From: a virus
Strand: one strand, 5' to 3'
DNA: 37,303 bases
Virus record (IMG/VR): IMGVR_UViG_3300010885_017373
Coordinates: 1-37,303 of that record
In this document: positions 1,829 to 37,179 of the stretch, piece by piece
Layout of the letters: each line of letters begins with the position of its first letter
Numbering within the stretch: position 1 is the first letter of the stretch
Notes under the pieces: model-generated
What the model saw: the letters and a program-made list of their open reading frames with translations, nothing else
What the model was told of the DNA's origin: nothing
Database searches by the model: none
Translations under genes and position numbers: made by a program

Positions 1829-1981
1829 ATGGTCATTTATCTGCGTCACGATAAACACGGCACAAAGGTCGCTATATGCGAGGCCGAGGCTGTTGCGGAT
1901 GAAGAAAACGGTTGGGTGCGATACACTCCGGGGGAGGTAACACCCCCACCCGTGAACCGTCTTAGAAGGCGAAAACAATGA
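1829..1981 (+). CDS. 50-residue conserved phage protein between coat and gp4-like gene
   Basis: ATG at 1829 opens a 50-residue frame beginning MVIYLRHDKHGTKVAICEAE and ending with a basic LRRRKQ tail. I recall similar short proteins (YLRH..HGTKVA...E...NGW.RY) beside P22-like coat genes in many phages; no function is known to me. Its TGA overlaps the ATG of the gp4-like gene (ATGA at 1978-1981), a sign of translational coupling. No ribosome site is visible and a strong hairpin lies just upstream, so expression may be low. Confidence 0.72.
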   Translation: MVIYLRHDKHGTKVAICEAEAVADEENGWVRYTPGEVTPPPVNRLRRRKQ

Positions 1982-2688
1982 CGACTGCTGCGGATCAGAT
2001 CAACGGCGCGCTTCGTCTGATCGGCCAACTGGCCGAGGGTGAGATCGCCTCAGTAGAGACATACCAAGACGCCTTGAACGCTTTGAATCAGATGATTGAT
2101 TCATGGAACACAGAACGCTTGACGGTGTTCACAACGATAGACCAAGTGTTGACTTGGCCTGCCAATGCCGCCAGCAGGACTCTTGGGCCGACCGGCAATT
2201 TGGTGGGTGAGCGACCTGTATTGCTGGACGATTCAACGTACTTTGTAGATTCGTCGAGTGGCATCAGTTTTGGCATAAAAATGATCAACCAGCAGCAGTA
2301 CAACGGTATTGCTGTCAAGACGGTGACCAGCACCTATCCGCAAGTCATGTTCGTCAACATGACCTACCCAGACATTGAAATGACCGTTTATCCTGTGCCA
2401 AGCAAGGCGTTGGAATGGCACTTCATTTCGGTTGAACAATTGACCCAGCCCGCGCTGTTGTCCACCACGCTGGCGTTCCCACCAGGCTACTTGCGGTGTT
2501 TCAAGTACAACCTAGCGGTTGAGATTGCGGCTGAGTTTGGTATCGAACCGCCGCCTACTGTGTCGCGGATCGCCATGTCCAGCAAGCGCAATCTCAAGCG
2601 CATCAACAACCCTGACGACATCATGAGCCTGCCGTACAGCATCGTGGCGACTCGCCAGCGGTTCAACATCTTTGCCGGGAATTACTGA
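1978..2688 (+). CDS. Head-tail adaptor, P22 gp4-like tail accessory factor
   Basis: The 236-residue protein matches the P22 gp4 family: an N-terminal helical part (QINGALRLIGQLAEGE, then ALNALNQMIDSWNTERL) and a C-terminal part with EWHFISVEQLT, PPGYLRCFKYNLAVEIAAEFG and ISSKRNLKRIN-like sequence. P22 gp4 is about 166 residues; longer versions are usual in environmental relatives. Family members dock below the portal and extend the DNA channel after packaging. It overlaps its neighbour on each side by one to four bases, forming a tail-plug cluster with the gp10-like gene. Confidence 0.85.
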   Translation: MTTAADQINGALRLIGQLAEGEIASVETYQDALNALNQMIDSWNTERLTVFTTIDQVLTWPANAASRTLGPTGNLVGERPVLLDDSTYFVDSSSGISFGIKMINQQQYNGIAVKTVTSTYPQVMFVNMTYPDIEMTVYPVPSKALEWHFISVEQLTQPALLSTTLAFPPGYLRCFKYNLAVEIAAEFGIEPPPTVSRIAMSSKRNLKRINNPDDIMSLPYSIVATRQRFNIFAGNY

Positions 2689-5210
2689 TGAAGTCGCCGA
2701 TCTTAGGCGGCTCATATGTAGCACGGTCAACCAATGCGGCCGACGCGCGGCTGGTAAACCTATACGCCGAGGCCACGCCAGAAGGCGGCAAAGAGGCAGC
2801 ATTTCTGACTCGCTGCCCCGGCTTGCGTCTGCTGGGCACGGTTGGGTCTGGGCCGATTCGCGGGATGTGGACGTTCGGCGCGTACTTCTATGTCGTGTCG
2901 GGCCTAGAACTGTATCGGGTAAGCGCGAACTACAACAACTCACTTCTCGGCGCGGTGACCGGCACGGGGCCGGTGTCCATGAGCGACAACGGCACGCAAC
3001 TGTTCGTTGCCTGCAATGGCCCGGGTTTTATCTACAGTTCCAGCACAGGCGTTTTTGGGGCTATCAACGACCCTGACTTTGCGGGCGCTGTCAGCGTGGG
3101 GTTCATCGACGGGTACTTTGTTTTTACCCAGCCAAACAGCCAAGTGTTCTGGGTGACCACCCTTTACGGGACGGGCATCGATCCGTTGGACTTTGCCAGC
3201 GCAGAAGGATCGCCTGACGGTCTTGTGAGCATGATCGTGGATCACCGCGAGGTCTGGCTGTTCGGAACCAACTCGGTTGAAGTCTGGTACGACGCAGGCA
3301 ACACCGACTTCCCGCTGGCGCGGATTCAAGGCGCGTTCAACGAGATTGGCTGCGCTGCCGCATATTCTGTCGCCAAGTTGGACAACGGCATTTTCTGGCT
3401 AGGGTCAGATGCCCGAGGCAACGGCATTGTCTACCGCTCACAAGGCTATACCGGCGTGCGTGTCTCGACCAATGCCGTTGAGTTTGCGATCCAGAACTAC
3501 GCGGTCATCTCGGATGCGGTGGCCTACACCTACCAGCAAGAAGGCCACACTTTTTACGTCCTGACGTTCCCGTCAGCGGATGCAACTTGGGTGTACGACG
3601 CCTCGACTGACCTGTGGCATGAGCGTGCTGGCTGGGGGCCAAACGGCTTTATGCGCCATCGCTCTAACTGCCAAGTAAATTTCAACAACGAGATTATCGT
3701 TGGCGACTACGAAAACAGCAACATCTACGCGCTCGACCTCAACGAGTACACCGACAACGGCGAGATTCAGAAGTGGCTGCGCTCATGGCGGGCGATCCCT
3801 CCCCGTCAGAATGATCTGAAGCGCACGGCCCAGCACTCGCTGCAACTGGACATGGAGGTCGGCGCGTTCAACACGCTGACTGAGCAAGTACCAACAAGCG
3901 AAACCGCTGAGTTAGCCATTACGTTAGAAGACATCTCTGTTGCTATTACCGCGCAAGGCGGCGGCGACATCTTGTACGCACCGTTTAACAGCACGACGAC
4001 AACAACTGACGTTATTTCGCCAGCAATAACGCCAACTGTAACGATACCGGGGACTTCAACTATAACTTTTGACGCAACTAAAGGTACTTTTACAAACGAA
4101 ATTGGGTATTACCCAACTGTGCAATATGGTGCCCAAGGTTCTGCTACATCGACAAAACTCAGTCCCGCAAATTACCCAGCAGAATCAGTTGTGCTTACTG
4201 GGTACATAGATTTGACCAATGTTCCTCTTGGGGGGTCAAGCGCGTCGGACGGCACTAAAGTATTGAGAATGGCTTTTGCCCCAAATCCTTCTGGGTATTC
4301 ATACGCCTTCTGGGGAATGTATGTAGACACAGGCGTTTTGTATTCTTACATACAATCTCCTGTTAATGCTTTATCCGGGCTATTAACCACTATAATGCCA
4401 GGGCCATCTGCGGGCGTCCATAAGTATAGTATTGAATGGCGACCAGATGACACCATAATTTTCAGAATAGATTCCGTGGTGTACCGTGTTACATACGGAG
4501 CCACGCGACCATCATACGGAACATGGGGTATGGAACTAGGTATTGATGCTACAGGTTACAGGTATCCTGCTACTGGTGGCGTTAAAGAACTTACACTAAA
4601 AGACTTTTTGTACCAACATTTACCGTTAACAACACCCTACTGCTGGACAAACGTAGCCGATACCACCGGCGTATTTAGCAATAATTCTAGAACTTTTACT
4701 ATTGGCGGCGCAGTTGCAACTCGAACTAGCGATGCATTGTCAGGTAAGGTTTATTGCGAATTTTCTTGGACTGGCCCATCACCTATTTTGTACATGGCAT
4801 TTGGTGTAACTAACAGCCCCGTCGATATATTTTACAATAGAGGCAACTCTATGTTTTCTCGTGGGGATACTAGTTCATGCTGCGGGTTACCTAACGCGGG
4901 GTATACTGTTAGCGGAGTTGTTACAACCGACACGTTATACAGTTTTGCGCGCGGCGACCGTATCGGCATTGCATTTGATACCACAACCCAAAATGTTTGG
5001 TTTAGTAAAAATGGCATATTTATAAGTGGTAACCCCGCAGCAGGTACTTTACCCACCAGCACTATGGCAGGGTCTGGGCCATTTTACTTTGTGACGTCAA
5101 ATTATAGTTTTGGTACGCCCGCAGGTAGTTACCCTATTACCATGTACCCTAACTCGGCGACAATGTCGTACTCGCCCCCATCAGGCTTTACTCGATACGA
5201 CCCATCATGA
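2688..5210 (+). CDS. gp10-like tail hub protein with two inserted lectin-like domains
   Basis: Residues 1 to about 393 match the P22 gp10-type 'packaged DNA stabilisation' family: N-terminus GGSYVARSTNAADARLVNLY, then repeated beta-propeller-like strands (GYFVFTQPNSQVFWVT, EVWLFGTNSVEVWYDAG, NGIFWLGSDARGNGIVY). After LDMEVGA the family similarity stops. Residues about 440-640 look like a laminin-G/concanavalin fold (HKYSIEWRPDDTIIFRID near 577) and about 650-835 like a SPRY domain (VYCEFSWTG near 687, IGIAFDTTTQNVWFSKNG near 760). The DNA for this second half is visibly more AT-rich. The missing family C-terminus is encoded by the next gene. The protein probably closes the DNA channel and displays the new domains at the tail for receptor binding. 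Confidence 0.85.
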   Translation: MKSPILGGSYVARSTNAADARLVNLYAEATPEGGKEAAFLTRCPGLRLLGTVGSGPIRGMWTFGAYFYVVSGLELYRVSANYNNSLLGAVTGTGPVSMSDNGTQLFVACNGPGFIYSSSTGVFGAINDPDFAGAVSVGFIDGYFVFTQPNSQVFWVTTLYGTGIDPLDFASAEGSPDGLVSMIVDHREVWLFGTNSVEVWYDAGNTDFPLARIQGAFNEIGCAAAYSVAKLDNGIFWLGSDARGNGIVYRSQGYTGVRVSTNAVEFAIQNYAVISDAVAYTYQQEGHTFYVLTFPSADATWVYDASTDLWHERAGWGPNGFMRHRSNCQVNFNNEIIVGDYENSNIYALDLNEYTDNGEIQKWLRSWRAIPPRQNDLKRTAQHSLQLDMEVGAFNTLTEQVPTSETAELAITLEDISVAITAQGGGDILYAPFNSTTTTTDVISPAITPTVTIPGTSTITFDATKGTFTNEIGYYPTVQYGAQGSATSTKLSPANYPAESVVLTGYIDLTNVPLGGSSASDGTKVLRMAFAPNPSGYSYAFWGMYVDTGVLYSYIQSPVNALSGLLTTIMPGPSAGVHKYSIEWRPDDTIIFRIDSVVYRVTYGATRPSYGTWGMELGIDATGYRYPATGGVKELTLKDFLYQHLPLTTPYCWTNVADTTGVFSNNSRTFTIGGAVATRTSDALSGKVYCEFSWTGPSPILYMAFGVTNSPVDIFYNRGNSMFSRGDTSSCCGLPNAGYTVSGVVTTDTLYSFARGDRIGIAFDTTTQNVWFSKNGIFISGNPAAGTLPTSTMAGSGPFYFVTSNYSFGTPAGSYPITMYPNSATMSYSPPSGFTRYDPS

Positions 5211-5452
5211 CCGCAACCGTACCTCGCGCCCCCTTAGTGATGCTCCGCTGGTCTGATGACGGCGGGCACACTTGGTCGAACTACCATGAGAAGTCTTGCG
5301 GCAAGATCGGCGAGACAGGCACTCGCGTGATCTGGCGCAGGCTGGGCATGACGGTTAAACTGCGCGACAGGGTGTACGAGGTCAGCGGCACAGACGCCGT
5401 GAAGATCGCCATCATGGGCGCAGAGATCATCGCATCACCGACAAATGGTTAA
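5207..5452 (+). CDS. Detached C-terminal domain of the gp10-like tail protein
   Basis: The 81 residues contain VMLRWSDDGGHTWS, RVIWRRLGMTVKLRDRVYEV and SGTDAVKIAIMGAEI. As I know the family, this is the normal C-terminus of environmental gp10-like proteins, not a free-standing one. Its ATG overlaps the stop of the gp10-like gene (ATGA at 5207-5210) in a different frame, so it is probably translated by re-initiation and then rejoins the N-terminal part non-covalently. The first dozen residues (MTATVPRAP) appear to be new sequence that supplied a start codon. Confidence 0.82.
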   Translation: MTATVPRAPLVMLRWSDDGGHTWSNYHEKSCGKIGETGTRVIWRRLGMTVKLRDRVYEVSGTDAVKIAIMGAEIIASPTNG

Positions 5453-6104
5453 CCAGACCCAAATCCCATCCGCGCGCGTCCCCCTCACAGAGGGGGAGAA
5501 CAATCTGATCTCGCGCGAATGGTTCCGGTACTTCAACAACATCAACACCCTAGCCGGTGGCGGCGCGGGGTTAATCCCTGTCAGCAGCGGCGGCACGGGT
5601 GTGTCCACAACCCCGTCCAACGGCCAACTGCTGATCGGCAACGGTACAGGCTACACGCTCAACACTCTGAGCGCCGGAACGAACATCGCCGTTGCCAACG
5701 GCGCGGGCAACATCAGCGTGTCGTTCAGCGGCATCCTTTCACCTAGCCAAGGTGGCACAGGCAGTTCAACCGTACCCCCAACAGGCTCGGTTCTGATTGG
5801 TAACGGTACAAACTACACGGTCGGCACGGTTACCGCTGGCCCTGGCCTTAACGTCAACAGCAGCAGCACGGCGATTACGGTTTCGCTGGCGGGCGGCGCT
5901 ATTCCGATGGGGCAAGACGGGCAAGATGCTGATGGAACCGATTTTTATACTTTTGCCGCGCCGCCAATCACAACCCCCGCCGCCGCGTCTGCCACATACG
6001 CAGCAGGGGTGGCGGTTGGTGTGTTTCACCCAGACGATACATACGGCGGCTACACCGTTGGGCAGATCGTTACCGCGCTCAAAGTCTCTGGGCTGTTAAC
6101 ATAA
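5445..6104 (+). CDS. Repeat-containing fibre-like structural protein
   Basis: The 219-residue protein starts MVNQTQIPSARVPLTEGEN and carries two tandem units, about residues 45-97 and 98-150, each with GGTG, then LLIGNGT or VLIGNGT, then AGxxxxV and IxVSxxG. Such GGTG repeats are common in phage tail or head fibres and form trimeric beta-structures. The C-terminus (YGGYTVGQIVTALKVSGLL) resembles ends of short fibre-associated proteins. It overlaps the preceding gene by eight bases. A virion role is likely; receptor binding is not shown. Confidence 0.72.
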   Translation: MVNQTQIPSARVPLTEGENNLISREWFRYFNNINTLAGGGAGLIPVSSGGTGVSTTPSNGQLLIGNGTGYTLNTLSAGTNIAVANGAGNISVSFSGILSPSQGGTGSSTVPPTGSVLIGNGTNYTVGTVTAGPGLNVNSSSTAITVSLAGGAIPMGQDGQDADGTDFYTFAAPPITTPAAASATYAAGVAVGVFHPDDTYGGYTVGQIVTALKVSGLLT

Positions 6105-11308: not shown

Positions 11309-12151
11309 ATGGCATCATTGACCCCCACCCCTCGGATGCAGTTCTTCACGGCGACCGGCGTGCCGCTGGTTGGCGGCAAACTGTACACCTACACCGCCGG
11401 TACGACCACGCCGCTGGCGACGTATACCGATTCGACCGCCGCTACCGCCAACACCAATCCGATCATCCTTGATGCGCGGGGCGAGTGCAGCCTGTGGGTT
11501 GGATCAGCGCAGTACAAATTTGTTTTGCGTGATTCGTTGGATGTGCTGATCTGGACTGCCGACAACATCAACTCATCCATCTCCACCACGAATCTGACCC
11601 TCACAGGTACGGTGACCGGCGGCAATGCCTCGTTTGTCAACATCGCCTACTCCGGCACGCTCACCGGCACGGGCGCAGTTAGCAGCGGCGCGACCACAGC
11701 AACTTCATTGGTTGTCAGCGGCAACGCTCGGAACGCCTCGCTCGGCGTTGGCACTACGGCCAGCGGCGTGACCGGCGAAATCCGCGCCACCGGCACGATC
11801 ACCGCCAGTTACTCGGATGAGCGTTTGAAAACAGAAATTCAGACAATTCCTGGCGCTCTTGCGCGAGTTCTTATGCTGCGCGGCGTGCGATACCGCGCGA
11901 ATGATGTTGCCAAATCCTATGGGTTTTCGGATGAACGGGTGCAAGTTGGCGTGCTGGCGCAAGACGTAGAGAAATGGTTGGAAGAAGCGGTGGCCCCCGC
12001 TCCTTTTGACATCGGCCAAAAAGAAGACGGCAGCGAATACAGCCTATCAGGCGAGAACTACAAGACGGTTCAGTACGAAAAACTTGTGCCTCTCCTGATC
12101 GAGGCGTACAAGGATTTGCACACCATGATTCAAGAATTGAAAAATGGATAA
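11309..12151 (+). CDS. Short tail fibre/spike with self-cleaving S74 chaperone domain
   Basis: Residues 1 to about 90 (TPRMQFFTATGVPLVGGKLY, then ILDARGECSLWVGSAQYKFV) resemble head-binding N-termini of P22-type tailspikes. Residues about 168-280 are an intramolecular chaperone (peptidase S74): SDERLKTEIQTIPGAL with Ser169 at the expected self-cleavage site, VGVLAQDVEKWLEEAV, and YKTVQYEKLVPLLIEAYKDL. In this family the C-terminal domain trimerises the fibre and is cut off. Only about 75 Gly/Thr/Ser-rich residues lie between, so the mature fibre is very short. No enzymatic receptor-degrading domain is visible. Confidence 0.87.
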   Translation: MASLTPTPRMQFFTATGVPLVGGKLYTYTAGTTTPLATYTDSTAATANTNPIILDARGECSLWVGSAQYKFVLRDSLDVLIWTADNINSSISTTNLTLTGTVTGGNASFVNIAYSGTLTGTGAVSSGATTATSLVVSGNARNASLGVGTTASGVTGEIRATGTITASYSDERLKTEIQTIPGALARVLMLRGVRYRANDVAKSYGFSDERVQVGVLAQDVEKWLEEAVAPAPFDIGQKEDGSEYSLSGENYKTVQYEKLVPLLIEAYKDLHTMIQELKNG

Positions 12152-34618: not shown

Positions 34619-36544
34619 ATGGCCCTGTACGCAGACCGTGTAAAGGACAGCACCTCACTTACAGGTACTGGTGCGGTCACGCTGAGTGGTACTGCGTCTG
34701 CTGGTTACCAGACATTTGCCACGGCATTTGGTGCTACCCCGCAGACAGTTGCGTACTGTATTGCCGACCAGACCGGCAGCAACTGGGAAGTCGGCACGGG
34801 TGTGTTCAACGGCACAACCGGCCTGACCCGTGTGACCGTGCTGGCATCGAGCAGCGGCGGTTCGTTGGTCAATTTTACCGGCGGCACGCAGGATGTGTTT
34901 TGTACCGCCCCGGCTGCGTATTTGTTATCTCCCGGCGCGAATACACAAGTTGCGTACAACAACGCAGGGTTGCCAGGGGCAAGCGCCAATTTTACCTACA
35001 CCAGCGGGACTAACACGCTGACTACCGGCAACATCACAGGCTCCGCGCTGTCGATGACGATCCAACCAAAAACGCCAACTTTCTTAGAGGCAGCGGGGAC
35101 GCTTGCGTTTGCGGCAAAAAATGCTGTAATAAGTAACGGTAATGGAGGGTCTGTATCTTTTACTTCCGGTAACGGGGATGGTACAGGAAGTGGTGGAAAC
35201 TTAAATTTTAGTTCTGGGTCTGGAGTAGACGGCGGTGGACTTAGTATTTTGGCGGGCAACGGATCACAAAACGGCGGGGCGTTTACCGCCCGCGCAGGCG
35301 ATGGGTACACCGGAGTTGCTGGCGGTTTCACCCTAACGGCTGGGAACAATGAACGATCAGGCGGCGCTGCTGGGACTATTGCTTTAACGTCTGGTATTGC
35401 CGTTGGAGGCGATGGCGGGGATATTTATCTGTCGTTAGGGTTTGGGGGTATAAATAACGGTAGTCTATTAGTCACTACAGACGTTGGTACTGTATTTGAG
35501 GCAACATTAGACTCTGGCACTTTTGCAAACCGGCTAGGCTTTTATGGGGTAACACCTGTCGATCAGCCCGCACCCACAGCATCTGGCACTCAAAACGTAC
35601 TTGATAGCGTTGTATCCAGCCTCATCAACCTTGGTCTTATCCAATCTGGTGGGTTTTCCAATATCACCTCCGTAGCCCCCGCTGGCGCAGACACTCAAAT
35701 TCAGTACAACAATGCTGGGGCGTTAGACGCAAGTGCAAACTTTACATATAACAGCGCCACTAATACAGTAGCACTTGGCCCCAACACGGGTACGGCAACA
35801 TTTACCACCCGCGCGCCGACTGCAACCACCATAGCCCCAACCACCTTGGTAATTGCTGGACAAAACAGCATTAGAACTACTGGAACAACAGGCGTTGGCG
35901 GCGCGGTTACGATACAGGCGGGAAATGGTCGCCCCACAGGAGCGGGTGCTACTGGTGGTGCAGTCAACATAAATGCTGGCACAGGCGTCGGTACAACATC
36001 CGGTATTGGCGGTGCAATAAACATTACCGCAGGTAATAGCACACTTACAACCTCTTTGGGTGGAGCGTTGACATTACGCTCAGGAAACGGTGCGACTACC
36101 AGTATTTTTGGCGGGAACAATTCTGCTGGAGACGGTGGATCGCTTACATTGCAATCGGGTATTGCTAGTGGTGCTACGGGCAATGGGGGTGCTTTCCAAC
36201 TTTTTGGTGGGCAAGCAATCAATGGGAATGGTGGCAATTTTGAGATGCGCGGTGGGTTAAGTAGTAATGGTACGGGGGGGAGTTGCGTTTTTGTTGCGGG
36301 ATATTCATCCACAGGGCAAGATGGTAGTATTGCTTTTAACCTCCCGTTTAGTAGTAGCCCATTTCCGGGCTCTGTTTTTGTTGTTAACGATGCAACCATT
36401 GCCTTTGAAATAACTTCTAACGCCACTACAGGCGCAACTAAGATGGGTTTTTTTGGTGCAACCCCAGTCGAAAAGCCCGCCGCCGTACCCGTCACCGCAG
36501 CGGGTATTCATGCTGCACTTGTTTCTTTAGGACTTATCACATAA
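34619..36544 (+). CDS. Head or tail fibre with internal tandem duplication and glycine-rich stalks
   Basis: The 641-residue protein opens with a known fibre-base region (LYADRVKDSTSLTGTGAV, then DQTGSNWEVGTGVFNGTTGL). Two like-built modules follow: one starts GANTQVAYNNAG near residue 106 and ends GFYGVTPVDQP near 306, and the second starts GADTQIQYNNAG near 357 and ends GFFGATPVEKP near 609. The G-(F/Y)-(F/Y)-G-TPV--P motif is a trimerising fibre end I recall from phage head fibres. Gly/Asn/Ser-rich repeats (GGAVTIQAGNG, GGALTLRSGNG) lie between. Base composition is more AT-rich than in neighbouring head genes. Confidence 0.82.
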   Translation: MALYADRVKDSTSLTGTGAVTLSGTASAGYQTFATAFGATPQTVAYCIADQTGSNWEVGTGVFNGTTGLTRVTVLASSSGGSLVNFTGGTQDVFCTAPAAYLLSPGANTQVAYNNAGLPGASANFTYTSGTNTLTTGNITGSALSMTIQPKTPTFLEAAGTLAFAAKNAVISNGNGGSVSFTSGNGDGTGSGGNLNFSSGSGVDGGGLSILAGNGSQNGGAFTARAGDGYTGVAGGFTLTAGNNERSGGAAGTIALTSGIAVGGDGGDIYLSLGFGGINNGSLLVTTDVGTVFEATLDSGTFANRLGFYGVTPVDQPAPTASGTQNVLDSVVSSLINLGLIQSGGFSNITSVAPAGADTQIQYNNAGALDASANFTYNSATNTVALGPNTGTATFTTRAPTATTIAPTTLVIAGQNSIRTTGTTGVGGAVTIQAGNGRPTGAGATGGAVNINAGTGVGTTSGIGGAINITAGNSTLTTSLGGALTLRSGNGATTSIFGGNNSAGDGGSLTLQSGIASGATGNGGAFQLFGGQAINGNGGNFEMRGGLSSNGTGGSCVFVAGYSSTGQDGSIAFNLPFSSSPFPGSVFVVNDATIAFEITSNATTGATKMGFFGATPVEKPAAVPVTAAGIHAALVSLGLIT

Positions 36545-37179
36545 TGGCAATCACCAAACAACTTACCAACGCCGCTGGTATCGTCTACGAATACCACCGA
36601 ATCAACTCGGTCATCATTGACGCGCAGGACAATCTGTTCGCAACGGTTACGTCTTACCTCAACAAAGACCGCGCCACCGTCAATGATCGGCCTGTTGACC
36701 GCTTCTCCACCCAGATTCATACCAGCATCACCACGGGTCTAGTTGCCACGGCAGAAACGCTGATTGTTGCCGACCCAGAGTGCAAGTTGTTTGGCGGTGT
36801 TGTAACGCCAGACGTCATCGTGTCTGATCTGGACAAGGCCAAGGCCAAGAAAAAGGCTGAGATCGCCTCTGCTCGCAGCGTTGAGATGTACGCCGACAAG
36901 ACCACCAGCCTAGGCGTGTTTGGCAGCACAGAGTCAGACAACAACAAACTGTCCATCGCCATCCAAGTCACGCAGTTGGCGGCAGCAGCAGGCCAGCCCG
37001 CAGAGTGTGGTTACAAGGATGTACAGGGAGCCTACTCGGTCTACACGTTGGCTCAGTTGGAACAAATTGCTTTGGAGATCGCCGCCCAAGTCATTCCAAC
37101 GTATGAGAAGGAAGCCATCCTGACGGTTTCAATTGAAGCGGCAGCAACGGTTGAAGAACTTGAAATGATCGGGTGGTAA
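36544..37179 (+). CDS. Fibre-associated protein with DUF4376-like C-terminus
   Basis: The 211-residue protein starts MAITKQLTNAAGIVYEYHRI and has a beta-rich N-terminal half. The C-terminal part (KKKAEIASARSVEMYADKTT, then NNKLSIAIQVTQLAAAAG, then LAQLEQIALEIAAQVIPTYE) follows the DUF4376 pattern often found in proteins beside phage fibres. It may assist fibre assembly. Its ATG overlaps the fibre stop by one base. Confidence 0.74.
   Translation: MAITKQLTNAAGIVYEYHRINSVIIDAQDNLFATVTSYLNKDRATVNDRPVDRFSTQIHTSITTGLVATAETLIVADPECKLFGGVVTPDVIVSDLDKAKAKKKAEIASARSVEMYADKTTSLGVFGSTESDNNKLSIAIQVTQLAAAAGQPAECGYKDVQGAYSVYTLAQLEQIALEIAAQVIPTYEKEAILTVSIEAAATVEELEMIGW

Follow-up and report, generated by a model that had tools for sequence, protein, structure and literature searches.

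How can a tail protein that its relatives make as a single polypeptide be encoded by two genes? The gp10-type hub is a central part of the P22-type tail, where it closes the portal and provides the attachment of needle and tailspike, and it is known as one chain. In the viral DNA analysed here (the window, meaning the whole stretch of 37,303 bases) two adjacent genes take its place, the first of them bearing a long extension. No description of a naturally split gp10-type hub was found in the literature searched, which consisted mostly of non-subscription papers.

Two genes of one hub family

The window carries genes for terminase, portal, major head protein, adaptor-like, hub, tail-fibre-like and DNA-ejection proteins, and the hub locus stands where P22-type hubs commonly stand, after an adaptor (Ad3)-like gene and before tail-fibre-like and DNA-ejection genes. 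Its features are as follows.

1978-2688, plus strand: upstream gene, head-tail adaptor-like (phrog_12985; phrog_637, Ad3, weakly), overlapping ORF1 by one base
2688-5210, plus strand: ORF1, 840 amino acids, gp10/Hc3-like N-terminal part of the tail hub with C-terminal inserted modules
2697-3872, plus strand: gp10/Hc3 core, ORF1 residues 4-395 on phrog_578 positions 7-400, with the predicted beta-propeller and the opening strand of the C-terminal beta domain (propeller and strand order from the model of intact relative L098)
3873-5207, plus strand: inserted region, C-terminus of ORF1
3987-4631, plus strand: possible laminin-G/GH16-like (concanavalin-type) beta-sandwich, boundaries approximate (weak PF00722 match, ORF1 residues 571-603 only)
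4632-5201, plus strand: SPRY-like domain, ORF1 residues 649-838 (PF00622 at 703-776, phrog_10080 at 649-838)
5207-5210, plus strand: ATGA stop-start overlap of ORF1 and ORF2, without a Shine-Dalgarno sequence upstream
5207-5452, plus strand: ORF2, 81 amino acids, C-terminal strands of a gp10/Hc3 protein as a separate gene
5445-6104, plus strand: following gene, tail-fibre-like (phrog_31660); its start overlaps the end of ORF2

Both genes belong to the P22 gp10-type (Hc3) hub family. In PHROGs profile searches the core of ORF1 matches phrog_578 with an E-value of 1.1e-112, and residues 7-77 of ORF2 align to its positions 403-470 (E 8.7e-13). This profile of 486 positions represents head closure Hc3, the P22 gp10 family, whose Pfam entry is PF11134. 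As the two matches adjoin on phrog_578, two positions apart and without overlap, they are parts of one family profile. A sequence-only reading of this DNA had taken the first about 393 residues of ORF1 for gp10-like and the 81-residue gene for the displaced C-terminus of the same family, lying in another frame behind an ATGA overlap, and on both points it was right. Each half is present once in the window, and the hub proteins of Pan3 and Pam1 are matched by both halves in a phmmer search of the PDB. PF11134 gives no score on the window proteins in the Pfam search but does so on the relative L075, and NCBIfam holds no model for the window proteins.

AlphaFold2 prediction of ORF1 from 15 sequences reached a mean pLDDT of 45 and yielded no usable model; the structural comparison uses a model of the intact relative L098 (mean pLDDT 72). 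The best structural matches of this model are P22 gp10 structures (Z 36.0, 35.4 and 33.5; 8eap_D has Z 36.0 and 8u10 Z 35.4), 9vyg follows with Z 33.3, non-phage propellers reaching at most Z 22.2, and the intact relative is accordingly predicted to have a beta-propeller hub fold like that of solved gp10. In the model the break, or in intact relatives the loop, separates strands 385-390 and 405-411, where the C-terminal beta domain begins; the strands of this domain are modelled with low to moderate confidence (pLDDT ~30-67). A profile built from 42 intact relatives likewise finds the P22 gp10 structures, at E 4.7e-11, as well as the hub proteins of Pan3 and Pam1. By profile, and by the model of an intact relative, the locus falls into one family with P22 gp10, Sf6 gp8 and the hub of Pam1 and Pan3 (Hc3, packaged DNA stabilization protein), but these known members are single chains, whereas in the window the last strands form a separate gene and a module of ~445 residues stands at the break.

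Single-chain relatives and recurrence of the split

Is the two-gene form an error, a ruin or a maintained arrangement? Searches of IMG/VR gave at least 346 loci, a number that includes repeated contigs, and these loci were classified by script. Single-chain relatives joining both parts, on which the sequence-only reading had made its claim depend, proved to be the norm: among the matches listed, 278 of 284 distinct junctions hold both halves in one open frame, where distinct refers to the DNA between the two halves and the count is a sample, not a census. In 16 records of cultured phages a match to the C part follows the N match at a distance of 9 to 132 bases.

The window shares its two-gene form with several relatives. 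One contig (L002) is of the same population, identical at 100% over 6,998 bases. The ATGA junction is also present in L082 and L162, which come from two further metagenomes, and their identity to the window is 95% in the N part and 96% in ORF2, but only 41-43% in the inserts. L083, from a fourth metagenome, is 83% identical in the N part and has the junction TAA ATC ATG, its contig ending inside ORF2; its insert (L083:6177-7097) is a PARCEL/DUF285 repeat (PF03382, E 1.7e-57) unrelated to the window insert. The window, L082, L162 and L083 form a clade with an SH-aLRT support of 100%. A single-base assembly or sequencing error in one contig could by itself make such a frame break. However, the arrangement recurs in contigs from different metagenomes, one of them with an unrelated insert, with different inserts throughout and with two junction types, and in L083 ORF2 follows an in-frame stop with the frame unchanged and has its own ATG as in every other case; the split is therefore not an error, and an artefactual indel is scarcely credible.

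ORF2 might instead be a decaying remnant, the inserted domains having replaced the old hub C-terminus. ORF1 and ORF2 are indeed separate genes, and the ORF2 product is predicted from its gene alone. However, dN/dS between the window and L162/L082 is 0.085-0.093 for ORF2 and 0.074-0.079 for the N part, so that selection constrains ORF2, at ~0.09, about as tightly as the hub core; ORF2 is 96% identical between siblings whose inserts are ~43-45% identical, and it keeps the motifs that are invariant in intact relatives. Decay is thus very unlikely, and the purifying selection on ORF2 indicates that the two-gene form is being maintained. This small group of lake viruses probably builds its tail hub from two pieces.

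A search with clade-specific and ATGA-spaced DNA patterns returned the known clade, a distant locus with the halves close together (L348) and, by chance, L184, L255 and L282. A Betaproteobacteria chromosome (L356) that appeared to hold the N part only was discarded because its assembly contains runs of N and a join to terminase-like sequence.

L282 and L255, two assemblies that are 99.5% identical over 6.5 kb, show a second arrangement, and a third contig (L364) holds its 3' part.

L282:2547-5932, gene order: 426-aa ORF (gp10 N part); 101-aa ORF; 326-aa tail-fibre protein (phrog_4176, full-length); 277-aa protein

In the 277-aa protein residues 6-187 match the tail-fibre family phrog_4950 and the last ~70 residues are the gp10 C part; the last three genes of the locus carry Shine-Dalgarno-like sequences. 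In the window, L082, L162, L083 and L282/L255 the hub is therefore encoded as separate genes and not as one polypeptide. T10 and G6 runs occur where the gp10 N fragment shifts frame into the 101-aa ORF (L282 near 3790-3825, and also in L255); they may reflect transcriptional slippage or a shared homopolymer sequencing error, a question that leaves the separation of the halves by two fibre genes unaffected. In an 87-row tree the freely inferred topology needs two split changes, but a tree with all splits together is equal or better (p-AU 0.55); since monophyly of the splits is not rejected, convergence is not claimed.

The junction loop and the inserted module

What occupies the position of the break across the family? 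Among the listed loci the loop joining the two parts is ~12-310 residues long, with size classes near 14, 45-55, 80-90 and 110-170 residues, and its position, split loci included, holds TESGD-type repeats, dockerin-like (PF00404, weak), PARCEL/DUF285 (in the split L083), SPRY-like, glycine-rich (PF21722 weak; phrog_4474, E 7.8e-22) and other contents. As these contents are unrelated between groups, the loop is a module hot spot. TESGDxLxTE-type repeats fill loops of 40-90 residues in many intact relatives (L087-L156), and a related group (L226, L292, L299, L335) carries dockerin-like or EF-hand-like LGDVNxDGxV modules in its hub loop without loss of frame. PARCEL/DUF285 repeats are known from mycoplasma and other surface proteins. 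They are described as horizontally distributed among microbes (PMC2996958); in L083 they occur within a phage tail-hub gene. One intact relative (L311) keeps an insert of 310 residues in frame and unsplit, so that insertion alone does not force a break. The proposal that a domain acquisition broke an essential protein in two hence holds for the split itself, which is real, but not for simple breakage by insertion, as many modules lie in frame and ORF2 is under purifying selection.

In the window the insert is an in-frame extension of ORF1 by ~445 residues. Its core has a GC content of 44.7% as compared to 57.8% in the N part and 60.1% in ORF2, in agreement with the AT-richer DNA first described. 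Of the two lectin-like domains named for it, SPRY is detectable but borderline: PF00622 scores 26.9 bits on the isolated insert (cut-off 26.3) and 25.3 bits on the whole protein, and in the siblings' inserts 13.5 bits or no match was obtained in Pfam. For the laminin-G label there are weak GH16/concanavalin-type matches only (E 0.003 to 0.09, with PF00722 on the window at E 0.003 to 0.007), plus a laminarinase at E 0.44. As regards a self-splicing intron or intein in the insert, an Rfam search of the full window gave no family above its cut-off, and no intein family is among the Pfam matches of ORF1.

The insert has been replaced while its surroundings stayed. No DNA-level match to window positions 4022-5138 is found in L082 or L162, though the flanks are 87-90% identical, and ORF1 keeps 93-98% amino acid identity to L162 through residue 360 but has 27-63% from residue 421 onwards. 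Synonymous divergence of the insert against L162 is saturated or undefined. The flanking dS is ~0.2-0.7, so that drift alone is insufficient for the divergence of the insert, and replacement by a divergent allele or strong diversification fits. The suggested domain acquisition is thus borne out in so far as the region behaves as an exchangeable module. As a query, the insert matches only its own population and L162 among the matches listed, and cultured phages weakly.

Does the insert bind the host, or does it serve the particle? Its module type, its variability and the analogy with evolved Dit proteins (PMC6669499) suggest a putative adhesin; the sugar or protein binding proposed in the sequence-only reading is likewise putative, and a change of host range through it may be speculated upon. 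The fibre gene at 5445-6104 and a further one at 11309-12151 with a Peptidase_S74 chaperone could, instead of the insert, encode the real receptor-binding proteins. An alternative that accepts one hub in two chains gives the insert a part in particle structure or assembly, perhaps as a platform carrying the downstream fibre. The gene behind the hub is tail-fibre-like, and its C-terminus, longer in L162, differs between L162 and the window as the insert does; in L282 the break holds real tail-fibre genes, one of them fused to the hub C part. However, PARCEL, glycine-rich, dockerin-like and SPRY-like contents in one loop suit variable external binding over a fixed interface, and the insert is the fastest-changing part, so that a structural role appears unlikely, if the least so of the alternatives weighed here. 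Elsewhere in the window, positions 36446-36893, with the end of a 641-aa ORF without family assignment (34619-36544) and the next gene, resemble L162:6110-6557, with the end of the L162 fibre gene and the gene behind it; by this sequence likeness fibre C-termini seem to be reshuffled between two genome places.

Translation, assembly and meaning of a probable two-chain hub

How would the second chain be made? ORF2 is read in the -1 frame. Upstream of ORF2 this frame is open from position 5153 only, ~54 bases before the ATG, and 5207 is the first start codon in it. A programmed -1 frameshift, or readthrough in L083, could in principle fuse some or all hub chains, the product ending at the stop codon being a second form as in some phage tail-tube proteins with Ig-like domains; the open frame ahead of the ATG would allow it, and frameshifted additions to virion proteins are known, such as SPP1 gp17.1* (PMC9022992). 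However, a slippery heptamer X XXY YYZ is absent from the overlap of the window and of L162, L083 has a TAA stop and no frame change, so that one shared mechanism fails to fit all members, and each member has an in-frame ATG of its own for ORF2. Recoding is thus improbable. Ahead of ORF2 no Shine-Dalgarno sequence was detected in the window, in L162 or in L083; most of the window's other genes have one. Termination-reinitiation coupling is established for ATGA pairs (PMC6728339), very short gaps also allow reinitiation, and such pairs often encode subunits of one complex (PMC10666635). From the missing Shine-Dalgarno sequence and heptamer, the ATGA or short gap and the unchanged frame in L083 we infer coupled reinitiation for ORF2.

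The reading that we prefer, with a probability of roughly 0.7, is a gp10-type hub of two polypeptides, completed in trans by ORF2 and carrying a swappable module at the C-terminus of ORF1. ORF1 would form the beta-propeller and begin the C-terminal beta domain with its first strand, and ORF2, made by termination-reinitiation at the ATGA overlap, would add the remaining strands and dock onto ORF1, thereby completing that domain. The module, SPRY-like with a probable concanavalin-type domain, would end ORF1 with its own stop and be displayed on the free C-terminus of each hub subunit, exposed at the surface and presumably binding the host envelope, and would be exchanged or diversified against a conserved hub. 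Since the P22 virion has six gp10 (PMC8402733), six arms would result.

How does such a hub compare to other decorated virion proteins? Evolved Dit and other CBM-decorated siphophage virion proteins also carry carbohydrate-binding modules inside a hub or tail structural protein; they are single-chain Dit, tail or neck proteins, some of them shown to bind (PMC6669499), whereas the window encodes a podovirus gp10-type hub whose first chain terminates in the module, with a putative binding role. Ig-like domains on phage structural proteins (Fraser et al. 2006, cited in PMC9022992) also decorate the surface of essential virion proteins as accessory domains. A programmed frameshift adds some of them, and that of YSD1 is inserted between strands of the core fold. 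They extend or interrupt one chain, so that the core fold is never completed from a second gene, and no frameshift signal was found in the window.

A broader proposal, to which we give somewhat less than even odds, is that the gp10-type hub can assemble from two separately made chains, with one loop as general docking site for exchangeable adhesins, and that the split arose more than once, in L282 with fibre genes between the halves and the last strands of the hub fused to a fibre protein, so that the hub would join the receptor-binding apparatus. A natural split maintained at a module hot spot would show where the gp10-type hub tolerates a break, and ORF1 and ORF2 would give a natural split pair for assembly studies. 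The locus also warns that short 'hypothetical' genes after gp10 may belong to the hub, and it points to an overlooked site where uncultivated freshwater podoviruses appear to diversify their surface modules.
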